The notes under the pieces were generated by a model. The model worked only from the letters and a program-made list of their open reading frames with translations. It was not told the origin of the DNA and did not search any database. From the NCBI RefSeq assembly GCF_002115805.1, contig NZ_JFKC01000017.1:1-64000 (forward strand): a DNA stretch of 64,000 nucleotides, in the 5' to 3' direction. Positions 58,425 to 63,940 of the stretch are shown piece by piece; position 1 is the first letter of the stretch, and each line of letters opens with the position of its first letter. The translations under genes and the position numbers were made by a program. Source of the stretch: Marivita geojedonensis. Lineage in GTDB: Bacteria > Pseudomonadota > Alphaproteobacteria > Rhodobacterales > Rhodobacteraceae.

Positions 58425-58871
58425 ATGCACCGCCGCACATTTTCCGCCCTTGCCCTCGCCACTCCCGCGCTCTGTCTTGCCCGCCCGGCGCTGGCCCGCG
58501 AACCCGAGATCTACCAGGAAGGCGGCATTGCCATCGACGGCTCAGACCCGGTTGGCTATTTCACCACGAACGGCCCGGTCGCGGGTGGCGACGTGACCCT
58601 CGATTACAAGGGCGCGACCTGGCGCTTTGCCGATCAGGCCTCCGCCGACGCCTTCGCCGCCAACCCCACGGCCTATGAACCCGCCTTCGGAGGCTACTGC
58701 GCCTTCGCCGCCTCCCGCGGCTACCTCGCGCCGACAACGCCCGAGGCCTGGACGATCTACGAGGACCGCCTCTACCTCAACGCCAACCTCCGCGCCCGCG
58801 AATTGTGGCTTCAGGATGTGCCCGGCAACATCGCCAAGGGCGAGGCAAACTGGCCGGGGATTTTGGGGTAA
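58425..58871 (+). CDS. Exported YHS-domain protein
   Basis: This 148-aa protein has a signal peptide with paired arginines (HRRTFSALALATPAL, perhaps Tat) and a YHS domain (IDGSDPVGYFTTNGPVAGG...WRFADQASADAFAANPTAYEPAFGGYCAFAASRGYL). YHS domains often bind copper or other metals, with the conserved Cys of GGYCAFA near the end. Such proteins occur with metal transporters; none is nearby. It is divergent from the phosphatase-like gene. Confidence 0.88.
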   Translation: MHRRTFSALALATPALCLARPALAREPEIYQEGGIAIDGSDPVGYFTTNGPVAGGDVTLDYKGATWRFADQASADAFAANPTAYEPAFGGYCAFAASRGYLAPTTPEAWTIYEDRLYLNANLRARELWLQDVPGNIAKGEANWPGILG

Positions 58872-59066: not shown

Positions 59067-59972
59067 TTATCCCAACAACCCTTCAAACTCCCGCCATTCC
59101 CCTTTGGACATACCGGAATTTTCCTGCGTCACGGTCTCGCCCTTGAGCATCCGCCGCACGCAGTCCAGCGCGGTAGAGGAGAGCGTCGCGCCGCCCATGC
59201 GGTAGTCCTCGAAGGCGCGGTAGGCGAAGGGGACCCAGTCGGCGACGACTTTGCAAATCTCTTCGGCATAAACCCTTATTTCATACTGCGCGTGCGAATC
59301 TGCTCTGAGTCGGAGGAAATGGAGCAGGTTGTGCAGATCGACCTTCCAGTACCATTGCGTGTAGATGTTCGCGGGCAGGTTCATCCGGGCCAGTTCGCGG
59401 GCCAGTCCCTGCTGGCCTTCCTGGCTGATCATCTCTTCGTAATGATCATAGCAGCGCATCGCGTCGTCACGCAGATAGCGCAGCACGCGGTCCGCTTCCT
59501 CGCCTTCCAGCGCTTCGCCGCGCCCCTGGTTGTTCACCACCGACTGCGCAGCAAGGTGTTCGGGCGCGGGAATATAAAACTCCCTGTCAAGGATCGAATA
59601 GCGGGCCGAGTATTCGTTCACGTTGGCGGTGCGGTGCCGGATCCACTGGCGTGCCACGAACACCGGCAGTTTGACGTGCAGCTTGATCTCGCACATCTCG
59701 AACGGGGTCGAATGCCAGTGCCGCATCAGGTAGCGGATCAGCCCTTCGTCATTCTGAACCGACTTGGTGCCCTTGCCGTACGACACACGCGCCGCCTGGC
59801 AGATCGCGGCATCGTCGCCCATGTAGTCCACCACCCGGATGAACCCGTGGTCCAGCACCGGGTAAGCGGTGTAAAGATGGCTCTCCATCCCCTCGCTGAC
59901 CGCACGCAACGTCTGCTGCGGCGCGCTGCGCTGTTCGGTGATTTCGGCCTCTTGTTCGGGCGACAGGGGCAT
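59067..59972 (-). CDS. thyX: FAD-dependent thymidylate synthase
   Basis: ThyX makes dTMP from dUMP using methylene-THF and NADPH with a flavin, and replaces ThyA. The 301-aa protein holds the signature [15 protein letters not shown] (112-126). The ATG at 59972 was chosen because of AAAGGA; an earlier in-frame ATG adds 11 residues. A dyad AGTCGG CA CCGACT lies 25 bases upstream. It depends on the same C1 pool as FolD/Fhs in this window. Confidence 0.96.
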
Positions 59973-59996
59973 GGCGAATCCTTTCCCACTAGGATG

Positions 59997-60010
59997 AGTC
60001 GGCACCGACT
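59997..60010. promoter_or_regulatory. Dyad before thyX
   Basis: AGTCGG CA CCGACT is an inverted repeat of 6-bp arms starting 25 bases upstream of the thyX ATG, in the divergent gap to the lipoprotein gene. It could be an operator; alone it is weak evidence. Confidence 0.3.
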
Positions 60011-60184: not shown

Positions 60185-61363
60185 ATGACGCGCATTCTCT
60201 TTCTTATCCTATGCATGGGGTTCGTCGCAGCCTGTGACAGCGGCGGTGGCGACGTGCTGCAGGCGCCGACCACGGGCGAGGGCACGGACACGGACGGGGG
60301 AACCGGTGACGGCACCGATGACGAAACCCCGATCTCGAGCGACCGAGGCACGCCGGAACTGCCGCCCGGCACCACGACCCCGACGCCCGATACCCAGATC
60401 GTCCGCCGTGAAGCACTCGATTCGGATACAGGCGGTGGGTATGCGACCAATATCGAATACCGCAATGACGAAGGTCAGGACGAATTCTTCGTCGACAACA
60501 TCGCGTTCGATGGAAACAACGTCTACACGCGCGGCGACCCCGTTAACGGCGTGGCGCAGCTTGGTTCCTTTGCTGTCTACGAGGGCGCGGAGACCACCGA
60601 AGACCCGGTGACGGGCACCACCCTGCGCACGTTCACATACCGCGCCATCTACGGCCGGAGCACGTCCGGCGCGACGGAATTCGCCATCGTCCGGTCCGGA
60701 TCCTACGTGGATTACGGGTTCGGCGGGTTTGTCTATCAGCGCAATGGCTTTGACGATGACGGAAATGCCGTGCGGCTGGTCCTCCCATCCGAAGGCGACG
60801 CGCGTTTTCTGGGCGACTATGCCGGCATCCGCGTGTTCGAAGGCCGCAGCGGATTCGAATTCGTCGATGGCGAGGCCGAGATGTATGTCGACTTCAAGGA
60901 CTTCAACGATGGTCAGCGCGGCGTTGCGCTGTTTGTGAACGACCGTCGCATCTATGACAGCAACGGTAATGACGTCACCATCGCCTATCTCGAAGCGCTC
61001 AACGAAAGCGGCGGCGGGACAAGCGGCGGTCTGTTTGGAAACCTTGACAGCGGCGATGATGCGGATGCCCCGTCACTCATTTACGAGACGGATGCAGACG
61101 GCAACCCGGTGCTGCCGCGCATCCGGCCGGTCATTTCGCCGGACGACGCCGATGCCAACGGCGAGATTGCTGGCGAAATCCGCGAAGTAGCCAACTTTGA
61201 CGACGGTTCGTCCAACGAAACCGGTGAAGGCACGTTCTATGCGATCATGTCCGGCGAAAACGCCGATGAGGTCGTCGGCGTACTGGTGATGACAGGCGAT
61301 GACCCGCGCTTTGACGGGAACACCTATCAGGAAACCGGCGGATTCATCGTCTACCGACAGTGA
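60185..61363 (+). CDS. Surface-type lipoprotein, probable Slam cargo
   Basis: This 392-aa precursor has a lipobox (GFVAAC, cysteine C17 followed by Asp), a Gly/Thr/Asp-rich linker (about 18-65) and a domain of repeated short beta strands (about 80-392) with a terminal GTFYAIMSGENADEVVGVLV...GGFIVYRQ. That pattern resembles the eight-stranded C-terminal barrel of transferrin-binding-protein-B-like lipoproteins, which Slam proteins place on the cell surface. It is coupled to the next gene: the stop TGA overlaps the Slam-like ATG. No ligand is apparent; it could bind metal, haem or host/particle surfaces. The ATG at 60185 follows GAGGCAG. Confidence 0.72.
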   Translation: MTRILFLILCMGFVAACDSGGGDVLQAPTTGEGTDTDGGTGDGTDDETPISSDRGTPELPPGTTTPTPDTQIVRREALDSDTGGGYATNIEYRNDEGQDEFFVDNIAFDGNNVYTRGDPVNGVAQLGSFAVYEGAETTEDPVTGTTLRTFTYRAIYGRSTSGATEFAIVRSGSYVDYGFGGFVYQRNGFDDDGNAVRLVLPSEGDARFLGDYAGIRVFEGRSGFEFVDGEAEMYVDFKDFNDGQRGVALFVNDRRIYDSNGNDVTIAYLEALNESGGGTSGGLFGNLDSGDDADAPSLIYETDADGNPVLPRIRPVISPDDADANGEIAGEIREVANFDDGSSNETGEGTFYAIMSGENADEVVGVLVMTGDDPRFDGNTYQETGGFIVYRQ

Positions 61364-62727
61364 TGACACGCTGGTCCCGTCGAATTGCCCTGACCCTCGG
61401 CGCCGTCGCTTTTGCGGCGGCGCAGGCGTCTGCCCAAGCCATTCTCAACCCCGCGCAGATGCGCGAACTGGCCGGACAGGCGGTTCTGCAGGGTCAGGCA
61501 GGACTGGCCTATGACCTTTCAGGGGCACTGATCCAGCGCGACGATGCCGATCTCAACGCGCATCTTATTCGCTCGCGCGCGGCCCGGGACCTGGGCCGCT
61601 ACGACGACGCGCTGAGCCACGCGCGCAGCGCTTGGAAACTGGCCGAAGACGAGGATGCGAAATACGCCGCCGCGCTGGCCATGGCGCAGGCGCTGTCGTC
61701 CTCGGGCCGGCGCACGGCAGCACAGCTTTGGTTGCGGCGTGCGGTACAACTGGCTTCGACCGACGCACGCAAGGCCCGCGCGACCGAGGATTTTCGGTAT
61801 GTCCGACGGCAGAACCCCTGGGCCACTGCGCTGCGCTTTTCGGTGGCGCCCAGCTCGAACATCAACAACGGCAGCCGCAACGAAACATCGGAGCTGTTCG
61901 GCCTGCCGTTCGAATTCTCGCTTGAGGGAGAAGCCCGTGCCCTTTCGGGGGTCGAAATCTCGACCGGTTTGAGCACCCGCTATCGTCTGCGCGAATCCGC
62001 CATGCGTCGGACCGACCTTCTGTTCGGTCTGTCGCACAGAACCTATGTGCTGTCAGACGAAGCCAGGGACATCGCGCCTGACGCAGACGGCGCCGATTTC
62101 GCTACCAGTTCCGTGTTTGTCGGGGTGCAGGAAGATTATGCTCTGCCCGGCGGCAAAGCGCAGCTCGGGTGGAACGCCCGGATCGGACGCACGTGGTATG
62201 GCGGTGATCCCCTGCTGAGCTACAACCGGATCGGTGCGACCTATCGGCGGGCCGCTGGTGACACGGGTGTGTTGAACCTGTCCCTGAGCCGCGAAGGTCA
62301 GAAAGGCCATGACACTCGCGAGGACGCGACGATCTGGAGCGGACAGATCGGGTACGGGATGGCACTGGCAAACGGCAACCGGGTGTCGCTGTCCACCGGG
62401 TTCACCGAATCCCGGAGTGACGCCGACTACCTCGACTATTCGCAGCGCATGATCGCGGCGAGCTACGGTCTGGCCAAACCGGTGGGACCGGCGCAGCTCG
62501 AATTCGGGTTGTCGGTTTCACAGAAAATACATGACCGGTCGAGCCTCACCACCGATGGCCGGGATGAGCGCACAATCAAGGCCACGGTCACGGCAGTCCT
62601 TCCGGACATGGATTTCTACGGTTTCGTGCCCACGATCACCTTCAACGCGGAACGGACAGAGGCGAATATCGATCTTTACGAGACCGAGAATTTCGGCGTT
62701 CAGCTTGGCATCCGCTCGACCTTTTAG
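61363..62727 (+). CDS. Slam-like outer-membrane translocator (TPR plus DUF560-type barrel)
   Basis: This 454-aa precursor has a Sec signal (about 8-26), an N-terminal TPR-like helical part (about 30-165, e.g. LNAHLIRSRAARDLGRYDDALSHARSAW) and a C-terminal beta-barrel with alternating residues ending in RSTF, a Phe-terminal outer-membrane signal. This is the Slam architecture (surface lipoprotein assembly modulator; type XI secretion). The ATG at 61363 overlaps the lipoprotein stop (TGATG); a GTG at 61360 is the alternative. It would move the coupled lipoprotein to the cell surface. Assignment rests on architecture, not a database match. Confidence 0.75.
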   Translation: MTRWSRRIALTLGAVAFAAAQASAQAILNPAQMRELAGQAVLQGQAGLAYDLSGALIQRDDADLNAHLIRSRAARDLGRYDDALSHARSAWKLAEDEDAKYAAALAMAQALSSSGRRTAAQLWLRRAVQLASTDARKARATEDFRYVRRQNPWATALRFSVAPSSNINNGSRNETSELFGLPFEFSLEGEARALSGVEISTGLSTRYRLRESAMRRTDLLFGLSHRTYVLSDEARDIAPDADGADFATSSVFVGVQEDYALPGGKAQLGWNARIGRTWYGGDPLLSYNRIGATYRRAAGDTGVLNLSLSREGQKGHDTREDATIWSGQIGYGMALANGNRVSLSTGFTESRSDADYLDYSQRMIAASYGLAKPVGPAQLEFGLSVSQKIHDRSSLTTDGRDERTIKATVTAVLPDMDFYGFVPTITFNAERTEANIDLYETENFGVQLGIRSTF

Positions 62728-62796: not shown

Positions 62797-63225
62797 ATGC
62801 CGCTTCGCTACCTTCATACCATGGTCCGCGTGAAGGACCTTGATGAATCGATCAAGTTCTACAGCCTTCTGGGTCTCAAGGAGACCCGCCGAATGGACAG
62901 CGAAAAGGGGCGCTTTACGCTCGTCTTCATGGCCCCCGAAGGTCAGGAAGAGTGCCCGGTCGAACTGACATACAACTGGGATGGGGACGACGGGTTGCCG
63001 TCCGACAGTCGGCACTTCGGACACCTGGCCTACCGCGTCGACAACATTTACGAGATGTGCCAGCACCTGATGGACAACGGTGTGACCATCAACCGGCCGC
63101 CGCGCGATGGGCACATGGCATTTGTCCGGTCGCCGGACAATGTCTCGATTGAACTGCTGCAGGAAGGCGATGACCTTCCCCCGCAGGAGCCATGGGCCAG
63201 CATGGAAAACACCGGACACTGGTGA
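62797..63225 (+). CDS. gloA: Lactoylglutathione lyase (glyoxalase I)
   Basis: GloA isomerises the hemithioacetal of methylglyoxal and glutathione to lactoylglutathione, detoxifying methylglyoxal. The 142-aa protein has candidate metal ligands H7 (YLHTMVRVKDLD), E56 (CPVELTYN), H76 (FGHLAYRVDN) and E119 (VSIELLQ). Length fits the nickel-type bacterial enzyme. It lies 70 bases after the Slam-like gene and four bases before the vWA gene. Confidence 0.94.
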   Translation: MPLRYLHTMVRVKDLDESIKFYSLLGLKETRRMDSEKGRFTLVFMAPEGQEECPVELTYNWDGDDGLPSDSRHFGHLAYRVDNIYEMCQHLMDNGVTINRPPRDGHMAFVRSPDNVSIELLQEGDDLPPQEPWASMENTGHW

Positions 63226-63229
63226 TGTG

Positions 63230-63940
63230 ATGCGGCGCTGGTGGGCAGGGATTGCAATGGCGCTGGGGCTGGGTCTGACCAGCCCGGCGCTTGCGCAGGA
63301 TCACTGCCGCCTCGCGCTTGTGCTTGCCCTCGATGTGTCGTCGTCGGTCGATGCCGAAGAATACATCCTTCAACGCGACGGTCTTGCTGCGGCTCTGGGC
63401 GATCCCCTGATCCGCGCAGCCATTCTGGAGGGCAACGGCCATGTGTCGGTGGCCATCTATGAATGGAGCGGACGTCGTCAGAGTGCGATGGTGAGCAACT
63501 GGGTTGCCCTGCACGACGACGCTGCGATCGACGGGCTGATCGACCGATTGATGTCGGCCCCGCGCAGTCACACGCGCTTTCCCACCGCGATGGGATATGC
63601 GCTGGGATATGGCGCGACCCTTTTGGCACGCGGGCCCGAGTGCGACCGCAGTGTGATAGACGTGTCCGGGGATGGCGAGAACAATGACGGGTTTCCGCCA
63701 CGCCTCGCCTACAAGAACTTTCCTTTTGCCAATGTCACCGTCAACGGGCTGGCTGTTCTGGGCGGGTCGGATGATGTGCTCGATTACTTCCACCGCGAAG
63801 TCCGCTACGGGTTCGGCGCGTTTGTGGAAACCTCTGAAGGCTATGCCGGATACCGCGAGGCCATGACGCGGAAGCTGTTCCGCGAATTGAACGACATGAT
63901 CCTGAGTGCCCGCCCGGTCACCGGTCCGCAGCCGGGCTAG
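63230..63940 (+). CDS. Exported von Willebrand factor A-type protein (DUF1194)
   Basis: This 236-aa exported protein has a signal peptide (about 1-22) and a vWA domain with the metal-ion-dependent adhesion site: DVSSS (D35, S37, S39), a threonine in HTRFPTAMGYALGYG and a later Asp in IDVSGDGENNDG. These proteins are exported and bind partners through Mg or Ca. DUF1194 members are common in Rhodobacterales without known function. It is four bases from gloA; the ATG at 63230 gives the typical signal peptide. Confidence 0.87.
   Translation: MRRWWAGIAMALGLGLTSPALAQDHCRLALVLALDVSSSVDAEEYILQRDGLAAALGDPLIRAAILEGNGHVSVAIYEWSGRRQSAMVSNWVALHDDAAIDGLIDRLMSAPRSHTRFPTAMGYALGYGATLLARGPECDRSVIDVSGDGENNDGFPPRLAYKNFPFANVTVNGLAVLGGSDDVLDYFHREVRYGFGAFVETSEGYAGYREAMTRKLFRELNDMILSARPVTGPQPG

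Follow-up and report, generated by a model that had tools for sequence, protein, structure and literature searches.

In work on Neisseria, surface lipoproteins pass from Sec through lipidation and Lol to Slam (PMC9090332), and TbpB and fHbp are established Slam cargos (PMC8406197). According to Grossman et al. 2025 (PMC12282271), every one of the seven verified type XI translocators belongs to the animal-associated cluster 1. The same source counts 145 cluster 3 outer-membrane proteins (OMPs), almost all from Rhodobacteraceae or Roseobacteraceae, with 0.21 cargo per OMP, and lists similarity below threshold among the possible explanations for so few cargos. It also annotates a syntenic locus in 11 strains of these families; in ten of them the lipoprotein is a predicted type 11 cargo with an SPII signal and an 8-strand barrel. 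In the literature that we covered (mostly open access, without bioRxiv preprints), we found no experiment and no surface or secretion data on any Rhodobacterales member.

Here we describe a gene pair at positions 60185-62727 of the window, by which we mean the whole 64,000-nucleotide stretch of Marivita geojedonensis DNA that was analysed. Judged from sequence and structure models, the pair very probably constitutes a type XI (Slam/DUF560) secretion system of the Rhodobacterales cluster 3 kind, a class to which we assign it by host, neighbours and sequence kin rather than by similarity network. This reading draws on the gene overlap, both models, the fold of the cargo, SlipAM kinship, conserved linkage and the published neighbourhood (PMC12282271). 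Against it stand an OMP that falls under the SlipAM cut-off, a cargo without a Pfam family, low query-length TM-scores, best OMP folds of the BcsC/PelB kind, and six of 48 sampled loci without cargo by profile. The initial annotation took a Rhodobacterales pair to be new. The same locus had already been described in the 11 strains mentioned above (PMC12282271), and the window pair is a further example of a kind known from related marine bacteria, modestly extended. The additions made here are counts of upstream cargo, a diverged cargo body in two of 17 Marivita, and an orphan cargo in a genome with a single OMP.

The gene pair and its predicted structures

ORF calling gave a cargo lipoprotein gene at 60185-61363 (+; 392 aa) and a partner gene at 61363-62727 (+; 454 aa) for a TPR/beta-barrel protein, the OMP. 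The features of the locus are as follows.

58425-58871, + strand: small protein with a signal peptide and a weak YHS match (20.5 bits; cut-off 30.3)
59067-60005, - strand: thyX, divergent neighbour (Pfam Thy1, 191 bits)
60185-60232, + strand: cargo signal peptide (aa 1-16), lipobox VAAC up to Cys17 (by motif)
60233-61363, + strand: mature cargo, 376 aa, stop included (model)
60236-60367, + strand: disordered Gly/Asp/Thr-rich cargo linker, mature 2-45 (low pLDDT)
60368-60712, + strand: N-terminal beta-strand (effector/handle/pedestal) region of the cargo, mature 46-160 (model; 84.6% mean identity among 15 type-A Marivita cargos)
60713-61360, + strand: predicted C-terminal 8-strand beta-barrel of the cargo, mature 161-376 (model, fold search)
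60956-61120, + strand: helix-bearing loop of that barrel, mature 242-296 (lowest conservation among six parts compared)
61325-61360, + strand: last cargo barrel strand, YQETGGFIVYRQ (89% mean identity among the 15 type-A Marivita cargos)
61363-61434, + strand: OMP signal peptide (type I), its start overlapping the cargo stop
61435-61812, + strand: predicted periplasmic TPR domain of the OMP, seven helices (model; Pfam TPR below cut-off)
61819-62727, + strand: predicted 14-strand OMP barrel (SlipAM/DUF560) ending in Phe, stop included (model; SlipAM relation)
62797-63225, + strand: glyoxalase/lactoylglutathione-lyase-like gene (Pfam Glyoxalase, 66.5 bits)
63230-63940, + strand: DUF1194 (vWA-like) protein with a signal peptide and a DxSxS motif (Pfam DUF1194, 210.7 bits)

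The two genes meet in TGATG, in which one base is common to the cargo TGA and the OMP ATG; a GTG three bases upstream of the ATG is a possible alternative start. In 15 of 17 Marivita the cargo stop is overlapped by the nearest OMP start, by 1 or 4 bases. By motif, the cargo N-terminus, MTRILFLILCMGFVAAC followed by Asp, consists of a signal peptide and a lipobox, with VAAC and the Asp at aa 14-18. The type I signal peptide of the OMP ends in ASA before Gln, and the final OMP residue is Phe. A lipoprotein with a lipobox and a stop/start-overlapping partner with a signal peptide and terminal Phe had been proposed at the outset, and these sequence features bear out that description.

A contig scan for OMP kin yielded 202 stretches. 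A relative is encoded in 176 of them, and the best 80 of these were kept as nearest kin. The closest in this set are 16 other Marivita loci (L031-L046, from M. lacus, M. cryptomonadis, M. hallyeonensis and others). Of the 78 nearest-kin loci with room upstream, 77 have retained a lipobox-like Cys in the cargo; the exception is the truncated L060. Terminal Phe was found in 30/30 OMP rows of alignment A1, a count to be read with the fact that its ORFs were chosen with a preference for final F, and in at least 90% of the 73 rows of alignment A5.

In E. coli lipoproteins, Asp at position +2 signals retention in the inner membrane; its presence in the window cargo had been listed as a further point. 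It is not diagnostic. Alignment A4 (70 nearest-kin loci chosen for a lipobox after six awkward ones had been left out, plus the window) has 71 rows, with G at +2 in 30, D in 18, S in 14, E in 6, N in 2 and T in 1. The 18 rows with Asp, the window among them, would suit a lipoprotein that stays periplasmic as partner or plug of the barrel and is not translocated, and the near-constant linkage of the two genes also fits such a fixed complex. We regard this reading as very unlikely: Gly or Ser stands at +2 in 44 of the 71 rows, the fold is that of known surface lipoproteins, and a diverged allele replaces the cargo body while the OMP stays (see below).

The cargo model, predicted from 71 sequences, had a pLDDT of 88.1 and a pTM of 0.86. 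It contains eight barrel strands between mature residues 164 and 375 (counted from the DSSP list) and a helix in one loop, and is preceded by a disordered linker at about mature 1-45 (pLDDT 43-61 in ten-residue blocks over mature 1-40). A Foldseek search of the PDB returned TbpB or fHbp entries at all of ranks 1-16 (E 7e-7 to 1.3e-4), rank 8 being a TbpA-TbpB-transferrin complex; ranks 17-18 were two chains of a DUF3598 protein and rank 19 was NHBA. Normalised by query length, the TM-scores of ranks 1-16 were low, at 0.25-0.33. Normalisation by target length gave scores of up to 0.60 with fHbp variant 2 and 0.68 with NHBA-C3. The model and these ranks agree with the TbpB-like small barrel that the initial annotation had read from the sequence.

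In HMM searches the window cargo alone matched nothing in Pfam or NCBIfam, and the proposed TbpB-type match was obtained for distant relatives: L024 (30.4 bits) and L029 (32.1 bits) exceeded the Pfam TbpB_B_D cut-off of 26, with L025 below it at 24.5 bits. At E <= 0.01, FHBP_C was found in 13 of the 71 cargo rows of A4, its best match having an E-value of 1.9e-4, and TbpB_B_D in two. A PDB sequence search with the window cargo as a single protein gave no match, and a 29-row cargo profile gave nine, at E 0.35-1 and mostly at the lipobox end. C-terminal ends resembling ETGGFI are common to many relatives. The subclass L025, L026 and L028 has, instead of this type of end, a short Cys-bearing extension after the barrel (two Cys each), and similar ends occur in several of L220-L246.

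His is absent from the mature window cargo. Across the 71 cargo rows, none of His, Met, Trp or, apart from Cys1, Cys reaches 80% conservation at any position, which speaks against a conserved haem ligand. Our guess is that the cargo binds a carbohydrate, a protein or a particle.

The AlphaFold2 model of the OMP (pLDDT 91.9, pTM 0.80) has seven helices (mature 6-126) that form an N-terminal TPR domain, followed by 14 strands of 11-17 residues (DSSP count, leaving out two 3-residue strands). This is the TPR region and barrel expected at 61363-62727. The sequence relation to Pfam SlipAM (PF04575) was at the margin: 20.0 bits (E 5.6e-4) against a cut-off of 22, over aa 395-454 only, the last 60 residues; a SlipAM search of the window's own 4.3 Mb genome gave no match at E <= 0.001. 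The relatives were clearer. SlipAM was found in 57 of 73 aligned OMP rows at E <= 1e-3. In a 30-row set, 20 rows matched it at E <= 0.01 (best 3.6e-33) and two matched TPR_Slam; TPR families, below cut-off in the window OMP, were likewise matched in relatives. Ten divergent OMPs were scanned singly: five were above the SlipAM cut-off (L018, L020, L021, L022 and L024), L019, L023 and L025 matched below it, and L027 and L028 gave no match at E <= 0.01. Together with the cargo fold and the TPR plus 14-strand build, the 57 matching rows support a Slam-like translocator with its cargo.

PDB sequence searches with single proteins, including a SlipAM-positive relative of the OMP, gave no match. A 30-row OMP profile gave at least 60 matches; those listed are, by name, largely TPR or other repeat proteins, matched over the TPR part. 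The best folds for the OMP model were BcsC (E 3e-11) and PelBC (E 2e-8), both of TPR-plus-barrel build, and then porins. These folds would favour an exopolysaccharide exporter of the BcsC/PelB kind with the lipoprotein as an accessory periplasmic protein, a reading that is scarcely credible because of the partner lipoprotein, which has a Slam-cargo fold, and the SlipAM family of the relatives' barrels; the BcsC/PelB matches were, besides, low (TM by query 0.33-0.40) with no Slam structure competing among the 50 fold matches listed. The five neighbours scanned with Pfam (Thy1, Glyoxalase, DUF1194, weak YHS and Zn_peptidase) included neither polysaccharide genes nor a TonB-dependent receptor.

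As part of a type XI pair, the window cargo would cross the inner membrane via Sec, be lipidated at Cys17 and reach the outer membrane via Lol. The unfolded cargo would then be held near the TPR domain of the OMP, which would recognise it through the C-terminal 8-strand barrel. It would pass through the 14-strand barrel and end outside, lipid-anchored, with its N-terminal region toward the medium. We infer this path for the window pair, with the order of steps taken from the work on Neisseria and from general background.

Linkage of cargo and OMP among relatives

Using tblastn, we found a cargo homologue directly upstream of the OMP in all 78 loci with room among the best 80 of the 176. The other neighbours were also largely kept in nearest-kin loci with room (thyX 61/70, glyoxalase 78/80, DUF1194 68/79), and cargo, thyX, glyoxalase and DUF1194 were all present in 53 of 69. 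Given the 78 upstream cargos and the start/stop overlap in 15 of 17 Marivita, the pairing of cargo and OMP is not due to chance. A possible folate, nickel or aldehyde role, suggested by thyX/gloA linkage, is discussed in PMC12282271; the linkage by itself does not show one.

A first search for kin had found matches at 35 places in 32 of 61 genomes and led to 30 loci, the window among them; a lipobox-bearing ORF lay just upstream of the OMP in 29 of the 30, and the thirtieth is L020, with a cargo split over two frames. For a wider view, 48 OMP places were taken as a spread sample, about every third among the family-wide matches listed (218 of 394 genomes matched). Cargo was found in 42 of the 48 by any profile match in the upstream stretch and in 37 by a strict position rule, with E-values that are not independent, as the profiles may share species with the sample. 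At L217 an upstream lipoprotein is present that the cargo profiles missed; at L223, L226, L234, L242 and L244 the upstream stretch fetched contained no lipoprotein. Two of these, L226 and L244, are from one genome (G334), both of whose OMPs are without upstream cargo.

The reverse count started from the family of the orphan cargo described below, for which 102 of 394 genomes matched, with 104 cargo places. Where an OMP place was compared, 83 of 87 cargo places are adjacent to it; the non-adjacent ones are G000:C25, G199:C68, G205:C79 and one in G309. In G154, outside the 87, cargo and OMP are adjacent too.

These counts suggest that kin of the window OMP usually have a cargo, and they bear on a question from the literature, whether the marine type XI kind has cargo as a rule. 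Cargo at 78/78 and 42/48 supports below-threshold similarity as a reason for the ratio of 0.21, a comparison between loci sampled here by likeness to the window OMP and OMPs grouped by network cluster in PMC12282271.

Some loci deviate in detail. At L060:5786-5938 (+) the cargo is reduced to its last part, and at L086 (about 4815, +) an in-frame stop follows soon after the lipobox of the cargo; the OMP frame is open in both. Upstream of 1480 (+) in L020, cargo body and lipobox leader lie in different frames and the OMP is intact; this split cargo is either a broken gene or a sequencing error. In four loci the distance from the glyoxalase gene to the best DUF1194 match is about 0.7-0.8 kb, more than in most (L063 at 8585, L075 at 8903, L093 at 8628 and L096 at 4784). 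An extra copy of DUF1194, as described in the literature for some strains, may lie in the gap.

Cargo alleles in Marivita and a second cargo in the window's genome

In two of 17 Marivita loci (L032 and L045) the leader is Marivita-like and the OMP is that of Marivita, but the cargo body between them is diverged. We compared 36 hand-picked rows (17 Marivita and 19 others) in quick trees supported by SH-aLRT only. The 17 Marivita OMPs form one clade (support 100) in the OMP tree, whose long-branch warnings lie outside Marivita. In the matching cargo tree, the L032 and L045 cargos fall with those of Puniceibacterium, Roseivivax lentus/isoporae and Aquicoccus, and a 72-row cargo tree agrees. Forcing the Marivita cargos together cost 124 log-likelihood units (p-AU 5.4e-4), for a group that was named after the odd identities were already visible; forcing eight OMPs into the cargo grouping cost 218. 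Two Cys beyond Cys1 occur in nine of 71 cargo rows, L032 and L045 included.

Compared with four other Marivita, the L032 and L045 DNA is 70-77% identical over the first 150 bases, 39-65% over the cargo body and 57-83% over the OMP. From this profile we conclude that the cargo body was replaced and that leader and OMP were kept. Differential loss and retention of an old second cargo, combined with gene conversion, would leave the same pattern as import from another genus. Replacement of the body with the OMP kept is more in line with a passenger than with a fixed structural partner.

The window's genome carries a second member of the cargo family, at G000:C25:4026-5051 (-) (L115; 342 aa, 357 bits). 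It groups with the L032 and L045 cargos (support 97), which together form a second allele class. The same genome has one OMP of this family, the next match being at E 0.375, and the orphan cargo would presumably be exported in trans by the window's OMP. No second cargo copy was found in the 16 other Marivita, and a search of a plasmid collection with the orphan gave no match.

The orphan gene is flanked by a TadG-like gene on one side and an AAA gene on the other; the surrounding Tad/Flp pilus cluster also encodes two TadE-like proteins, two T2SSF proteins and one T2SSE protein. A conserved tie between orphan cargo and Tad was considered and rejected, since the five best relatives of the TadG neighbour (G110, G139, G201, G218 and G032) give none; in four of these genomes every cargo match lies on a different contig, and G218 yields no cargo match at E <= 0.001. 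Another genus has an unlinked cargo-like lipoprotein with extra Cys near its N-terminus (L172:3167-4297, +; G205:C79), and the 10 kb stretch around it gave no match to the Tad proteins or OMP queries used.

A tentative but quite possible reading is that cargo is exchangeable in the Rhodobacterales type XI kind: OMP and leader would be kept per lineage, the exposed body swapped, and one OMP would serve several allele classes, including the unlinked Tad-cluster cargo in the window's genome. If so, the cargo would be a surface receptor or adhesin that diversifies, and the printed ratio of cargo to OMP would be low through a detection limit and not through loss of function. The natural swaps in Marivita, with two cargo allele classes in one OMP lineage, make the choice of cargo by the OMP testable.

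Comparison with known systems

BcsC and PelB channels, the best PDB folds for the window OMP, share with it TPR helices and a C-terminal outer-membrane barrel. The window OMP differs from them in its Slam-cargo-like lipoprotein partner and in the lack of a polysaccharide gene among the five neighbours scanned.

Closer are Slam1 and Slam2 of Neisseria with TbpB, LbpB, HpuA and fHbp (Hooda et al. 2017, PMC5449769; Huynh et al. 2022, PMC9090332; Grossman et al. 2021, PMC8406197). As described in these sources, they have in common with the predicted window pair an N-terminal TPR domain, a 14-strand SlipAM barrel and, encoded next to it, a lipidated cargo that ends in an 8-strand barrel. The differences are a weak sequence relation of the window OMP (SlipAM 20 bits), one barrel in the cargo model where TbpB has two lobes, and the absence of a TonB-dependent receptor from the five neighbours scanned here.

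The closest described system is the cluster 3 locus of PMC12282271 (Fig. 8, with Ruegeria pomeroyi locus tags), which comprises the same thyX, SPII lipoprotein, T11SS OMP, glyoxalase and DUF1194 genes. Ruegeria pomeroyi carries it as well (L082). It is from the same host group, and five models there have a helix in a barrel loop, as does ours. Marivita does not appear in the main text of that study, and the cargo sizes differ: 392 aa here, signal peptide included, compared with 282-375 aa there.
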